34,107 nt of DNA from a virus: positions 1 through 34,107 of the IMG/VR virus record IMGVR_UViG_3300024344_000064. One strand, given 5' to 3'. Position numbers and translations under genes: made by a program. Positions 791 to 15,150 of the stretch are shown one piece after another (within the stretch, counting starts at the first letter, position 1; every line of letters starts with the position of its first letter). The notes beneath the pieces are model-generated. The model worked only from the letters and a program-made list of their open reading frames with translations, was not told the origin of the DNA and did not search any database.

Positions 791-820
791 TTAACTAACC
801 TTTTTTTTAAAGTTAGTCAA
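791..820. other. Imperfect inverted repeat in an intergenic gap
   Basis: Arms 791-799 (TTAACTAAC) and 812-820 (GTTAGTCAA) pair over nine positions with one G-T, around a 12-base T-rich loop. It lies between the tail terminator gene (ends 836) and the small gene starting at 769. On the minus strand it has no following U tract, so it is not a classical terminator. It could be a processing or regulatory hairpin. Confidence 0.3.
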
Positions 821-835
821 AATATATTTTATCAA

Positions 836-1279
836 TTATGCTGTGCCTCTAACAAATTGATATAAAACTCGTACTACAACTCTAACTCCACCATAAGGAA
901 AAATTTCACCTTCATCTGTGTTAACCTCAATAATCTCAGTATTTAAAGCATTTCCGTTTCTAGTTATATCATTATCAAGTGTTTCTTCCACTACTTCAAT
1001 TAATTGGTTTCTTAATGTGTCAATATTGCTTGTTGTTCCTTTAACAAAACCAACAATTACAAAATCTATTGTACCTTGTCTTTTTCCTGTTCCAACCGCA
1101 CCCATAGTGCTAGGCTCTCTAGTTTCATCACCACTTTGCACATAACAGGCTGGAAATTGAGCATTTGATAATTCTTCAGGATCAAATGGCTCTCTAGTTA
1201 TCTTTTTTAATTCAATAGGACTAGAAACAGCATCTAGTTTTGTAATTATATCACCAGCAATATCTTCTCTTTCACTCAT
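836..1279 (-). CDS. Probable tail terminator / tail completion protein
   Basis: This soluble 147-residue protein begins MSEREDIAGDIITKLDAV and carries an alpha/beta pattern with FPACYVQSGDE, GTIDFVIVGFVKG and a C-terminal GVRVVVRVLYQF. This layout is typical of lambda gpU-like terminator proteins, which cap the growing tail: an N-terminal helix, strands built around a 'D-ILGYVKG'-like segment, and a final strand. It overlaps the upstream gene by 4 bp (ATGA) and follows the neck genes, the usual place for a terminator. Sequence identity to gpU is not evident by eye, so the call depends on pattern and synteny. Confidence 0.6.
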   Translation of the reverse strand: MSEREDIAGDIITKLDAVSSPIELKKITREPFDPEELSNAQFPACYVQSGDETREPSTMGAVGTGKRQGTIDFVIVGFVKGTTSNIDTLRNQLIEVVEETLDNDITRNGNALNTEIIEVNTDEGEIFPYGGVRVVVRVLYQFVRGTA

Positions 1280-3305: not shown

Positions 3306-4016
3306 TTAAGTTAAATTTATGACTGTGGGCTTACTATCCCTTTCCTTTTTATATTCAGCATATCGCTTCCTATCTTCAGGTTTTGTCATATCTAAATCCG
3401 CAATATTAAAAGGTTTTGCGTCAACCTTTCCCACATTACTCACACTTCCACTCCCTGAAGGAGTTGCCGCTTGAAAGTGAGGATTCTGTGTCAAAAACTC
3501 TTGAACATATTCATCTACTGATAAAAGTTCACCTTTAGTATTATAACGAGGTTGTTTGTTTTCTGCAAGAACTTCTACTTTGCCTTCGTCATTTAATTTT
3601 ACATTTGATTTTAATAACTGAACAACTTGATCTGGTACATTTGACCTATGCTTACTTGCACTAGACAATAAACTATCATTAATTTTTATTTGTTCTAATT
3701 GTGTTTTTAAATTTGCTATTTCAGAATTAGATTTATCAGCTTGTGTTTTCATTATTTCATCAAACTCGCCTCGCTGTTTCTTAATCTCTAGTTCTTTTTC
3801 TTGTTTTTCTTGCAAGGATAATTTTGCCGCATTCAAATCTTCTGTTCCTAACTCTTTGTAAATTTTTCTTCGTTCCCTTGCTAGTCGTTCTTTAACAATA
3901 TCGTCAACCTGTGCTTTGTTAAAAGAATCTTCTTTATTTTCTTCTACTTTTACTTCTTCCTGTTGGATTTCAGTTGTTGCAGTTTCAACTGTATCCGTTT
4001 TTTGCTCGTCAGCCAT
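3306..4016 (-). CDS. Capsid scaffolding protein
   Basis: The 236-residue, highly charged protein has an acidic Glu-rich N terminus, a helical coiled-coil middle (residues about 35-130, with KQEKELEIKKQRGEFDEIM) and a short basic and hydrophobic C-terminal segment. This is the typical build of a scaffold: a long helical body and a C-terminal capsid-binding end. It sits immediately upstream of the major capsid gene with a strong AAAAAGGAG start signal. No serine protease motif is seen, so it is not a protease-scaffold fusion. Scaffolds act transiently inside the prohead and are lost from mature particles. Confidence 0.8.
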   Translation of the reverse strand: MADEQKTDTVETATTEIQQEEVKVEENKEDSFNKAQVDDIVKERLARERRKIYKELGTEDLNAAKLSLQEKQEKELEIKKQRGEFDEIMKTQADKSNSEIANLKTQLEQIKINDSLLSSASKHRSNVPDQVVQLLKSNVKLNDEGKVEVLAENKQPRYNTKGELLSVDEYVQEFLTQNPHFQAATPSGSGSVSNVGKVDAKPFNIADLDMTKPEDRKRYAEYKKERDSKPTVINLT

Positions 4017-4028
4017 AATTACTCCTTT

Positions 4029-4226
4029 TTAAATATCAATATCTTTACTAATATCTTGATATTGTTTTATTTCTTTTTCAGTTATTTGTCTATTATCTTG
4101 TAAAACAATCTCTAAAAAATCTGCTAGACTCTCTTGTTCTTCAATAGATAAATTTCTTGTTGCTATTGGAAAATCATTATATTTTTTAATGTATTCACCA
4201 GATAATGCTATTAATCTATCAATCAT
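4029..4226 (-). CDS. Hypothetical 65-residue acidic helical protein
   Basis: The protein reads MIDRLIALSGEYIKKYNDFP and continues with mainly helical, charged sequence ending in ISKDIDI. It overlaps the MuF-metallopeptidase gene by 4 bp (ATGA) and precedes the scaffold gene. No known motif is visible. Its tight coupling to the MuF fusion invites the idea of a partner, chaperone or immunity protein, but a simple minor head component is just as likely. No signal peptide or membrane helix is present. Confidence 0.6.
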   Translation of the reverse strand: MIDRLIALSGEYIKKYNDFPIATRNLSIEEQESLADFLEIVLQDNRQITEKEIKQYQDISKDIDI

Positions 4227-9625: not shown

Positions 9626-9637
9626 TTTTTTTCTCCT

Positions 9638-10703: not shown

Positions 10704-10836
10704 TTTTTTTCTCCAATTCTTTAGTAGCTGAATCTATACAATCTTGCTGATACCCTTTCCACCAATTTCTCGTTTCTTGAACAATTTTCATGTAACGATC
10801 AGATAATTCCACTATTTTATACTCCCCAGATTTCAT
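10660..10836 (-). CDS. Small hypothetical protein overlapping two early genes
   Basis: The reading frame is open from 10878, but the most sensible start is the ATG at 10836. This lies within the last codons of the exonuclease gene and gives 58 residues beginning MKSGEYKIVELSDRYMKIVQ. The protein is charged and helical with a Trp pair (NWWKGYQQDC) and a Lys/Glu-rich end. It overlaps the exonuclease by 20 bp and the replication gene by 44 bp. The start signal is weak. It may be an accessory of either partner. No family is recognised, and the overlap lowers certainty that it is a real gene. Confidence 0.5.
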   Translation of the reverse strand: MKSGEYKIVELSDRYMKIVQETRNWWKGYQQDCIDSATKELEKKNDKIKDVEVWYKSR

Positions 10837-11850: not shown

Positions 11851-12058
11851 TTTTTTCTCCATCAATTTTTATTTGTGAAATATTAGCTTCACATTCAGCC
11901 AGAAATTCTCGCATAACTGCATTTAAAGTTTGTGCGGCACTTAAATTATCTATTCCGACCTTTGCCTGAACTTTAATTCGTGCTTTGTTATATAAGTCTT
12001 TATGTAATTCCAATGTGCTAAATCGCTTAATTGGATAGCTTCTTTTTTCCTTTGACAT
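11819..12058 (-). CDS. Possible ribbon-helix-helix-like DNA-binding protein
   Basis: The 79-residue protein reads MSKEKRSYPIKRFSTLELHK, then DLYNKARIKVQAKVG and SAAQTLNAVMREFLAEC. A basic N terminus, one strand (FSTLELH) and two helices is the Arc/MetJ ribbon-helix-helix layout, with a disordered acidic C-terminal tail. If correct it would be a dimeric regulator of the early region. The operator-like repeats at 14594-14627 are possible targets, but nothing links them directly. The start has AAGGAGAATGG upstream. Its end overlaps the next gene by 32 bp. It could equally be an unrelated small helical protein. Confidence 0.5.
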   Translation of the reverse strand: MSKEKRSYPIKRFSTLELHKDLYNKARIKVQAKVGIDNLSAAQTLNAVMREFLAECEANISQIKIDGEKNDTENNNQPV

Positions 12059-13008: not shown

Positions 13009-13019
13009 TTTTTTCTCCT

Positions 13020-13325: not shown

Positions 13326-13627
13326 TTTTTTCTCCTTTGTTCTTTTCTAAAGAAATTATTAATTGCTCTTTTCCATTTAGAATCAAATAGTTTCATTTGT
13401 ATTGGCTCTAAATAAAAATCATATCCAGAATCTTGATAAATATTTACCCAAAGACCATACAAATAAGTTCGTGTAATAGGATTTTTTCTACTCAACGATT
13501 TTTTATACTTATTAGCTTTATCAATAAGTTCCTTATCTTTTTCTTCTGAAATAAGATATGTTCTATTACCAACTCTAACAGAAACATTTTTTTGATTATT
13601 AGGAACTAATCTTATTTCTGGTTTCAT
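13322..13627 (-). CDS. Hypothetical basic 101-residue early protein
   Basis: The protein reads MKPEIRLVPNNQKNVSVRVG, then a Lys-rich helix (EKDKELIDKANKYKKSLSRK), aromatic TRTYLYGLWVNIYQDSGYDF and a C-terminal KWKRAINNFFRKEQRRKK. High charge suggests a nucleic-acid-binding or protein-binding role, but no family is recognised. Its C-terminal WKR-N pattern is faintly like that of the 101-residue protein at 13782. It overlaps the lipoprotein gene by 4 bp (ATGA) and the small gene upstream by 4 bp. Confidence 0.65.
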   Translation of the reverse strand: MKPEIRLVPNNQKNVSVRVGNRTYLISEEKDKELIDKANKYKKSLSRKNPITRTYLYGLWVNIYQDSGYDFYLEPIQMKLFDSKWKRAINNFFRKEQRRKK

Positions 13628-13785
13628 TTTTTTTCTCCTTCAAAACTTAGTTTAGGTTTATACACTACAACTGACTTTGAAAGTCTAGGTTGCTTTTTAT
13701 AAACTTTTTTAATTTGTTTTTTTGTTGGTTCTTTTTTTAAAGCACCTTCGTGCTGCTCTAAAACCCAATCTCCAAATCCACTCAT
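13624..13785 (-). CDS. Small basic early protein (53 residues)
   Basis: This short ORF starts MSGFGDWVLEQHEGALKKEP and continues Lys-rich, with VVVYKPKLSFEGEKK at the end. Both junctions are ATGA overlaps (start over the upstream stop at 13782, stop over the downstream start at 13627), and AAGGAG precedes the ATG. That is strong evidence of translation. The Trp-containing N-terminal helix and basic middle suggest a small DNA- or RNA-binding protein, though no family is recognised. Confidence 0.7.
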   Translation of the reverse strand: MSGFGDWVLEQHEGALKKEPTKKQIKKVYKKQPRLSKSVVVYKPKLSFEGEKK

Positions 13786-14087: not shown

Positions 14088-14259
14088 TTTTTTCTCCTAT
14101 AATTTTACTAGACATAACGACCTTACCATTTTGATCTAGTACAGTTGTTGAATTATCTAACCAAGTTATTTTTAAATCGTTGTTACTTACTTGAAAGCTA
14201 AAACCCAAAATTAATTTTTTAATTTTTAGCAATCTCATTAATGCTCTTTCTTGTTTCAT
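14080..14259 (-). CDS. Small hypothetical early protein (59 residues)
   Basis: This short ORF fills the stretch between the 92-residue gene and the gene at 13782. It starts MKQERALMRLLKIKKLILGF, has a strand-rich part (SFQVSNNDLKITWLDNST) and ends SSKIIGEKNV. The start signal is AAAGGAG with the A-tract spacer, and its TAA overlaps the next gene's start region by 8 bp. The basic N-terminal helix is not long enough for a clear membrane anchor. It is first after the hairpin at 14277-14296, so its expression may depend on read-through. Confidence 0.7.
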   Translation of the reverse strand: MKQERALMRLLKIKKLILGFSFQVSNNDLKITWLDNSTTVLDQNGKVVMSSKIIGEKNV

Positions 14260-14276
14260 TTTTTCTCCTTTGTTAA

Positions 14277-14296: not shown

Positions 14297-14563
14297 CTTA
14301 AAATCTGAACATAGATTTCTTAATTCAAGATCGTCTTTTCCTTTCATGTCCATGTAATCAAAGAAAAGATAAAGATTACCTCTTTGAGATAATTCATCAA
14401 AAGAAATTTTATGTTTAGAATTGTCTGGTAAAATTATTTCATGGTGTGAACCTATGATTGATCTCATAACAACACAGTTTTCAAAAACTTTACCCATAAT
14501 AGTAGTTATTGTAATAACTGAATTTTCAGTAGCAAAATCTTCGTAGTTACATTTGTCTAACAT
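14285..14563 (-). CDS. Hypothetical first early protein (92 residues)
   Basis: I choose the ATG at 14563, which has GGAG and the A-tract spacer; the frame is open to 14599, but the upstream ATGs lack a ribosome site. The protein starts MLDKCNYEDFATENSVITIT. It is strand-rich in the middle (VFENCVVMRSIIG, HHEIILPDNSKHKISFDEL) and ends in a helical CSDFKAAQ. No family is recognised. It is the first substantial gene behind the main leftward control region and has its own hairpin at the stop. Together these suggest strong, early, largely independent expression. A host-takeover or regulatory role is possible but unproven. Confidence 0.7.
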   Translation of the reverse strand: MLDKCNYEDFATENSVITITTIMGKVFENCVVMRSIIGSHHEIILPDNSKHKISFDELSQRGNLYLFFDYMDMKGKDDLELRNLCSDFKAAQ

Positions 14564-14576
14564 TTTTTTCTCCTTG

Positions 14577-14616
14577 TTCATATACACCTTTCTATACATT
14601 TATTATGTATTTGCAA
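14577..14616 (-). promoter_or_regulatory. Putative early promoter/leader, matching that at 9638-9683
   Basis: On the minus strand, TTGCAA (14611-14616) is followed by ATACATAATAAATGTAT, then GAAAGG and TGTATATGA, leading into ACAAGGAG and the A tract before the ATG at 14563. The same blocks occur in the same order before the 197-residue gene. The likely -35 is TTGCAA; the -10 is not clear-cut. It overlaps the repeats described at 14594-14627. Confidence 0.5.
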
Positions 14617-14627
14617 TACATTTATTA
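14594..14627. repeat. Operator-like repeats in the early control region
   Basis: ATACATTTATTA occurs at 14594-14605 and again at 14616-14627, a spacing of 22 bp (about two helical turns). Between and overlapping them, ATGTATT and AATACAT (14605-14611 and 14615-14621) form a 17-bp palindrome around TGC. The arrangement suits cooperative binding of a regulator over the early promoter. Confidence 0.55.
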
Positions 14628-14667
14628 ACAATTTGTAATTTTTTTTTATTTTGCTATAAATAATTAC

Positions 14668-14733
14668 CTAAAACATAAAAGGAATAGGGCAGTTTATCAG
14701 GGAAATATTTAGGTGTTCCTTGTTTTTTTTCAT
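14668..14733 (-). CDS. Putative 21-codon leader peptide ORF
   Basis: This ORF has the strongest class of early start signal in the window (TTTGGAG, A tract, ATG at 14733) yet encodes only 21 residues, starting MKKNKEHLNISLIN and ending PFMF. It lies in the leader upstream of the 92-residue gene, and its second half forms one arm of an inverted repeat (14687-14699) whose other arm (14753-14764) lies upstream of its ribosome site. Such an arrangement suggests a translated leader rather than a functional protein. It could also be a remnant of a deleted gene. Confidence 0.45.
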   Translation of the reverse strand: MKKNKEHLNISLINCPIPFMF

Positions 14734-14764
14734 TTTTTTCTCCAAATCTTAATGATAACTGCCC
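14687..14764. repeat. Inverted repeat flanking the leader ORF start
   Basis: GGGCAGTTTATCA (14687-14699) pairs with TGATAACTGCCC (14753-14764) with a single bulged T. The 53-base interval contains the ribosome site and start codon of the 21-codon ORF. In leftward RNA this would be a 12-bp stem enclosing a start region. As DNA it could be a pair of operator half sites between the divergent genes. Confidence 0.6.
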
Positions 14765-14787
14765 TTCTTTTATGCTACATATAGTGC

Positions 14788-15150
14788 ATGAAAGAGTCTG
14801 ACATACAAATTGCAGTAGTAGAATATCTTAAAGAAAAGCAAAAAACCTATAAATTTCGCTATTTTTCTGTACCTAATGAAGGGCAAAGAAAAGTTTGGTT
14901 TCTTAATAAGCTGGTTCGTATGGGTTTAAAGTCTGGTGTTCCTGATCTAGTGCTGGAATTTCCTGAAGGAAAAATTGTTTATTTAGAAATTAAAACTGAA
15001 AAAGGAAGGCTGTCAGATACACAAAAAAAGTGGCTAGAAACATCTGAGCAGTTAAATACCCCTCATTATGTCTTAAAAGGCTCTGTAGAGGCAAATTTAA
15101 GCCTTTTAGAAGGTATTTTTGCCCTGTTCCCTAATGCTAGAGTTGTGTAA
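14788..15150 (+). CDS. VRR-NUC domain nuclease
   Basis: This is the only plus-strand gene. Its 120 residues match the VRR-NUC fold of the PD-(D/E)XK superfamily: KESDIQIAVVEYL at the start, PNEGQR, SGVPDLVL with D53, then YLEIKTEKGRLSDTQKKWLE with E67, K69 and Q79. Stand-alone phage VRR-NUC proteins are thought to act on branched DNA, much like Holliday-junction resolvases, which would help recombination or packaging. It starts close to a TATGCT element (14771-14776), so its message may be nearly leaderless; no Shine-Dalgarno is visible. Its 3' end overlaps the opposing gene by 14 bp. Confidence 0.85.
   Translation: MKESDIQIAVVEYLKEKQKTYKFRYFSVPNEGQRKVWFLNKLVRMGLKSGVPDLVLEFPEGKIVYLEIKTEKGRLSDTQKKWLETSEQLNTPHYVLKGSVEANLSLLEGIFALFPNARVV

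Follow-up and report, generated by a model that had tools for sequence, protein, structure and literature searches.

The window, i.e. the whole stretch of DNA analysed here, is the 34,107-base virus record IMGVR_UViG_3300024344_000064 (positions 1 to 34,107). According to its sequence it belongs to a siphovirus-like phage of marine bacteria. Several of its proteins resemble tail and head proteins of the lambda type, and for a single large protein the phage collection held matches only in cultured Pelagibacter phages. The minus strand carries nearly all genes, and no integrase or repressor was found among the window proteins scanned, i.e. part of the ORFs. The hairpin considered in the following lies upstream of a plus-strand VRR-NUC nuclease gene (Table 1), which in the window family is preceded, after the hairpin, by a promoter-like TGCTAnATnTAGT of its own. 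A conserved, near-palindromic TGCTAnATnTAGTnn directly precedes the VRR-NUC start (window 14773-14790); it resembles an extended -10, and a leaderless VRR-NUC mRNA could be possible.

Table 1. Features of the hairpin region, predicted target sites in the window and hairpins of cultured pelagiphages
Feature	Position	Strand	Remark
RBS, early gene	9627..9636	-	Predicted target
RBS, primosomal/DUF1376-like replication protein	10705..10714	-	Predicted target
RBS, early gene	11851..11860	-	Predicted target
RBS, Erf-like annealing protein	13009..13018	-	Predicted target
RBS, early gene	13326..13335	-	Predicted target; best duplex, -21.6 kcal/mol
RBS, early gene	13629..13638	-	Predicted target
RBS, early gene	14088..14097	-	Predicted target
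RBS, early gene	14259..14268	-	Predicted target
RBS GGAGAAAAAA, first early gene (start 14563)	14564..14573	-	Predicted target
Early promoter-like TTGTTA-18-CATAAT	14602..14631	-	Consensus match only; below the hairpin
Promoter-like TTGTAA-16-TATAAA, TG before the -10	14633..14660	+	Putative; similar in relatives; absent from the consensus scan list
Predicted small RNA, about 105 nt	14667..14771	+	Ends placed by promoter-like and terminator-like sequence
21-codon leader ORF MKKNKEHLNISLINCPIPFMF, then stop	14668..14733	-	ATG at 14733, end at 14668; not conserved
Outer stem arm CATAAAAG	14674..14681	+	Pairs with 14767-14774; differs in some relatives
5' arm of conserved stem, AGGGCAGTTTATCA	14686..14699	+	Covaries with 3' arm in relatives
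Anti-RBS loop CATTTTTTTCTCC	14731..14743	+	Complement of early-gene RBS GGAGAAAAAAATG; predicted mostly unpaired
3' arm of conserved stem, TGATAACTGCCCT	14753..14765	+	Covaries with 5' arm in relatives
Outer stem arm CTTTTATG	14767..14774	+	T run after GC-rich stem, terminator-like
VRR-NUC nuclease gene	14788..15150	+	Downstream of hairpin; no Shine-Dalgarno; preceded by TGCTACATATAGT
CTCTC-loop hairpin, HTVC202P (L130)	4012-4045		
CTCTC-loop hairpin, HTVC111P (L131, plus strand)	4008-4040		
CTCTC-loop hairpin, HTVC026P (L202)	805-839	-	

The initial annotation had described a 12-bp stem with one bulge, and this was correct, the arms being GGGCAGTTTATCA (14687-14699) and TGATAACTGCCC (14753-14764). 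The repeat even exceeds that description, i.e. the outer arms extend the helix to 22 pairs with no mismatch apart from bulges. The folding suggested there as a check also bore out the hairpin, with z = -4.03 for the minus strand (14668-14775), where none of 200 shuffles folded as well. The plus strand (14668-14787) reached z = -3.02, with one of 200 shuffles as good. Therefore, since both strands fold better than shuffled sequence, and the minus-strand value is at least as good as the plus-strand values (-3.02 and -2.05), the window alone leaves the strand undecided.

Conservation and covariation of the two arms, the other check that had been asked for, were found among the relatives, i.e. 27 distinct VRR-NUC upstream regions collected by protein similarity together with a DNA pattern at the gene start. 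Five of the nine base pairs change on both sides (11 distinct arm pairs), and complementarity is kept throughout, as in GGGCAGT/ACTGCCC, GGACAGT/ACTGTCC, GGCTGGT/ACCAGCC, GGGTGGT/ACCACCC, GGGTCGG/CCGACCC and GGGCTGG/CCAGCCC. With the register set by hand from the sequences, the covariation score was 0.566, compared to 0.188 for shuffles (none of 500 as high) and at most 0.141 for slid registers. Considering that the arm sequence varies freely while its complementarity stays, the alternative that the arms are operator half sites for the divergent pair is unlikely and was rejected.

The 21-codon ORF itself is real in the window sequence, and the minus-strand start signal is present as described, i.e. 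a GGAG (CTCC at plus-strand positions 14740-14743), an A tract and the ATG. The ORF is, however, not conserved among the 27 related regions. Its start codon is absent in six of them (e.g. GGAGAAAAAAATTTAA), and in the other 21 regions the frame comprises 4 to 45 unrelated codons, several frames being too short to reach the second arm. A conserved short ORF overlapping the stem, by which leader-peptide attenuators are recognized, was thus not found among these regions. In the sister family described below, the opposite strand carries no ATG after the motif, so an ORF is unlikely to be the reason for keeping the motif.

These results bear on the translation-dependent switch proposed initially, in which ribosomes on the 21-codon ORF open the stem and alter the expression of the downstream early genes. 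While the full RBS and ATG in the window, the position of one arm inside the ORF and the good folding of the minus strand are all in line with such a leader-peptide switch, the lack of ORF conservation leaves it unsupported, and it would not explain why the loop changes together with the RBSs of other genes (see below). In addition, a transcription start below position 14687, which had been named as an argument against the switch, would fit the early promoter-like site at 14631-14602, a consensus match only. Therefore, we regard a leader-peptide switch as very improbable. What stands of the initial annotation in this respect is that the element probably bears on early-gene expression, but not via a leader ORF.

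A different role is suggested by the loop. On the plus strand, the loop motif UUUUUUCUCC exactly complements the RBS GGAGAAAAAA, and its TTTTTCTCC core, complementary to the RBS GGAGAAAAA, was found in the loop of all 27 related regions, with both loop length and stem sequence varying. The window contains 10 copies of TTTTTTCTCC, all on the plus strand, i.e. nine at minus-strand early starts (9.6-14.6 kb) and one in the loop, the latter being the only one of the 10 flanked by a stem. The late genes of the window, those for head and tail included, do not carry the motif at their starts, and in relatives it likewise occurs at early starts left of the hairpin, with one exception on the late side. 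Accordingly, the mean energy of the loop-RBS duplex was -15.5 kcal/mol for 12 early starts compared to -7.9 kcal/mol for 34 other starts (Mann-Whitney p = 1e-5). Complementarity to the RBSs of several genes in one genome is a feature that the loop shares with the functional class of trans-acting anti-RBS small RNAs. When the whole RNA was cofolded with its targets, the result was uninformative, because pseudoknots between loop and target cannot form in this method.

The strand was further assessed by the wobble pairs. The G-U pairs counted here hold only on the anti-RBS strand. In the window family, a symmetric helix search over 13 distinct helices gave 16 G-U to 7 A-C pairs, of which the sequence L032, with an AT-rich helix chosen by the search, contributes 7 of 23 (15 to 1 without L032). 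This excess, together with the match of the loop as antisense to the RBSs of its own genome, favours the plus strand as the RNA.

Evidence in this direction is also given by a sister family reached via the more distant VRR-NUC relative L113, in a search that returned 68 loci, a few of which are window-family contigs or fragments. It harbours a different hairpin upstream of VRR-NUC, the loop of which complements the early RBSs of its own genome. The pairs of loop and RBS complement are TGAACTCC with TTTTGAACTCC, TGATCTCC with TTTGATCTCC, TATGCTCC with TTTATGCTCC, TATTTTCC with TTTATTCTCC and, in one genome, TCGATCTCC with TTCGATCTCC. For a comparison over five classes, loops were taken by position rather than by match, RBSs were taken by a GGAG-to-ATG rule, and the three bases beside CTCC were compared; since CTCC is common to all Shine-Dalgarno complements, only the 3-4 nt next to it are informative. 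The mean match to the own RBS was 0.60, compared to 0.03 for the other classes, and the class diagonal was the best of 120 permutations. The own match exceeded the cross value in 73 of 73 genomes, behind which, the genomes being related, stand only few independent switches (about four). In a few genomes, L173, L177 and L182/L183, the first early gene has another RBS, and the loop-RBS pairing of L184/L186 includes one G-U. The wobble test was neutral in the sister family (10 G-U to 10 A-C).

The joint change of loop and RBS also bears on whether the uniform RBSs are merely recombination boundaries of shuffled early-gene cassettes, with the copy in the hairpin a remnant beside a terminator. First early genes do differ among close relatives with the RBS unchanged, as expected for such cassettes, but neither a covarying stem around the copy nor anti-RBS hairpins in phage groups with different RBSs would be predicted, and we give this explanation very little credence. 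Two further observations were made in the sister family. A conserved G5/C5 stem, GGGGGTAA..TTACCCCC (e.g. in L133), reaches to within 1-3 nt of the start codon of VRR-NUC; it seems to covary and might control VRR-NUC translation. Upstream of the first early gene, an early promoter-like TTGACT-17-TAAAAT overlaps the palindrome AACCTAG..CTAGGTT, possibly an operator. A pattern scan with the clade-B form for other copies returned the known loci and L129, the latter a chance match at a gene start.

Similar hairpins are found in the cultured pelagiphages HTVC202P, HTVC111P and HTVC026P. They comprise 12-13 pairs, lie in the divergent region ahead of the operon that runs opposite to the early genes, and carry CTCTC loops on the strand opposite the GAGAGA-type early RBSs. 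Shuffled genomes of the three phages yielded no such hairpin in 10 trials each. The loop paired more strongly with the RBSs of early starts than with those of late ones (p = 0.012 in HTVC202P, 0.003 in HTVC111P and 0.0007 in HTVC026P), the anti-RBS strand folded better than its complement in all three cases, and G-U pairs outnumbered A-C pairs. A scan of cultured pelagiphages for TTTTCTCC had returned no equivalent hairpin, which is misleading because their RBS class is GAGAGA. HTVC112P, with the RBS type AAGGAAAA, showed no clear anti-RBS hairpin; at about 4348-4360 of L201, this phage contains CCTTTCTAGTT, which is complementary over 11 nt to the gp09 RBS region and lies in no obvious hairpin.

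In STAB-SD leaders, ribosomes load at a site of the 5' leader that is not translated, and the mRNA is thereby protected from decay. A site of this kind in the minus-strand leader of the early mRNA would account for a GGAG kept without a conserved ORF and for the good folding of the minus strand. However, it would leave unexplained why the 3-4 nt next to the GGAG change with the RBSs of their own genome, why G-U pairs are in excess on the plus strand, and why the hairpins of the cultured phages are positioned in the leader of the opposite operon. Such a loading site is therefore, in our view, highly unlikely.

Taken from the sequence comparisons above, the reading we consider probable is that a plus-strand RNA hairpin pairs in trans with the early RBSs and blocks their translation, thus down-regulating the early genes collectively. 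The RNA would start at about 14667 from the plus-strand promoter-like site at 14633-14660, divergently from the early operon, fold into the hairpin and could terminate in the T-rich stretch that follows the 3' arm. Its loop would expose CAUUUUUUUCUCC, which is complementary at every position to the ribosome-binding sequence GGAGAAAAAAAUG common to the early genes, and by pairing in trans would block ribosome loading, i.e. it would presumably repress rather than activate. Late genes and VRR-NUC would be spared, as the former have no motif and the latter no Shine-Dalgarno. The early mRNA itself would start below the hairpin, from the minus-strand promoter-like site in Table 1, and the anti-RBS RNA would thereby bring about an early-to-late switch, the presumed timing of its action.

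In the window family, a GC stem followed by a T-rich stretch lies at the predicted 3' end across relatives, and most likely the hairpin RNA is a small RNA, about 105 nt in length, with this terminator-like stem at its end, although at about 50 nt its loop is long for an intrinsic terminator. The GC-rich stem adjoining VRR-NUC in the sister family has no T run, so the RNA may be a leader there, and in the cultured phages, too, the hairpin may belong to the leader of the opposite operon and not to a free small RNA.

This leads to the question of whether the hairpin is the plus-strand leader for VRR-NUC, or for whichever gene comes first in the opposite operon, and acts mainly in cis, the early RBSs then being its signal and not its target. 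The gene immediately downstream of the hairpin is always VRR-NUC or the first divergent one, and the second stem at the VRR-NUC start is conserved in the sister family, as would be expected of such a leader. On the other hand, the promoter-like sequence between hairpin and VRR-NUC in the window family speaks against it, and pairing with many RBSs is hard to fit to a purely cis role. We therefore consider a cis-acting leader unlikely, and the same holds for one example of it, an attenuator that folds according to the level of early mRNA.

With regard to known systems, no match was found in Rfam at gathering score, and nothing was credible by E-value over 14550-14850. The ar14/NfeR1 or 'cuckoo' small RNAs of alphaproteobacteria carry anti-Shine-Dalgarno motifs in unpaired hairpin regions and have multiple mRNA targets at the translation start; they are bacterial, with three hairpins and the fixed motif CCUCCUCCC (PMC10746234). 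As in these RNAs, the loop motif described here is conserved and the stems vary in sequence. Unlike them, it is a putative phage gene with one anti-RBS hairpin bearing UUUUUUCUCC, and the motif varies with the RBSs of its own genome. Considering the single hairpin, the different motif and the lack of an Rfam match, it is not an ar14 member; as judged by these comparisons the hairpin RNA belongs to no known family, with ar14/NfeR1 nearest in its predicted working, together with P1 c4 RNA. The c4 RNA of phages P1 and P7 is an antisense RNA blocking the RBS of ant, with the complementary parts in loops (PMC12197685). The predicted RNA would likewise be phage-encoded, block RBSs and have its complementary parts in loops. 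While c4 has the single target ant and acts in lysogenic immunity, the RBS concerned here is common to many early genes, and the window proteins scanned include neither integrase nor repressor.

Lambda OOP RNA is a short cis antisense RNA of cII, transcribed opposite the early genes, with promoter and terminator close together. The predicted RNA is similar in being short, opposite the early genes and, by its promoter-like and terminator-like sequences, closely bounded, but its action would be in trans on many genes. No published description of such an RNA in pelagiphages was found in a literature search largely confined to non-subscription papers.

The early-to-late control of phages is usually ascribed to promoters, sigma factors or antitermination. 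Here it would involve a translational regulon, i.e. a shared RBS and one matching RNA, in relatives of phages that infect SAR11, which is among the most abundant bacteria in the sea. With somewhat less than even confidence, we propose that these hairpins represent a widespread pelagiphage RNA class serving as a programmable off switch for early genes, in which the shared RBS is an address tag of the lineage and co-evolves with the anti-RBS hairpin as a private code. If true, such a code of tag and RNA could also keep co-infecting phages apart, and an anti-RBS RNA could also explain why the early-gene RBS is so uniform in these phages. The joint change of loop and RBS provides a clear prediction, testable by reporter assays as well as in the cultured phages HTVC026P (on HTCC1062) and HTVC111P (on HTCC7211).

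Finally, the rightward operon of two of the cultured phages carries a second hairpin at its 3' end, i.e. in HTVC202P (L130, 32039-32074) and HTVC111P (L131, 31388-31427). These hairpins carry a GAGAGAGA loop on the plus strand, which is RBS-like, and the anti-RBS sequence on the minus strand, and could act as a decoy that captures the anti-RBS RNA or be a further RNA of this kind.
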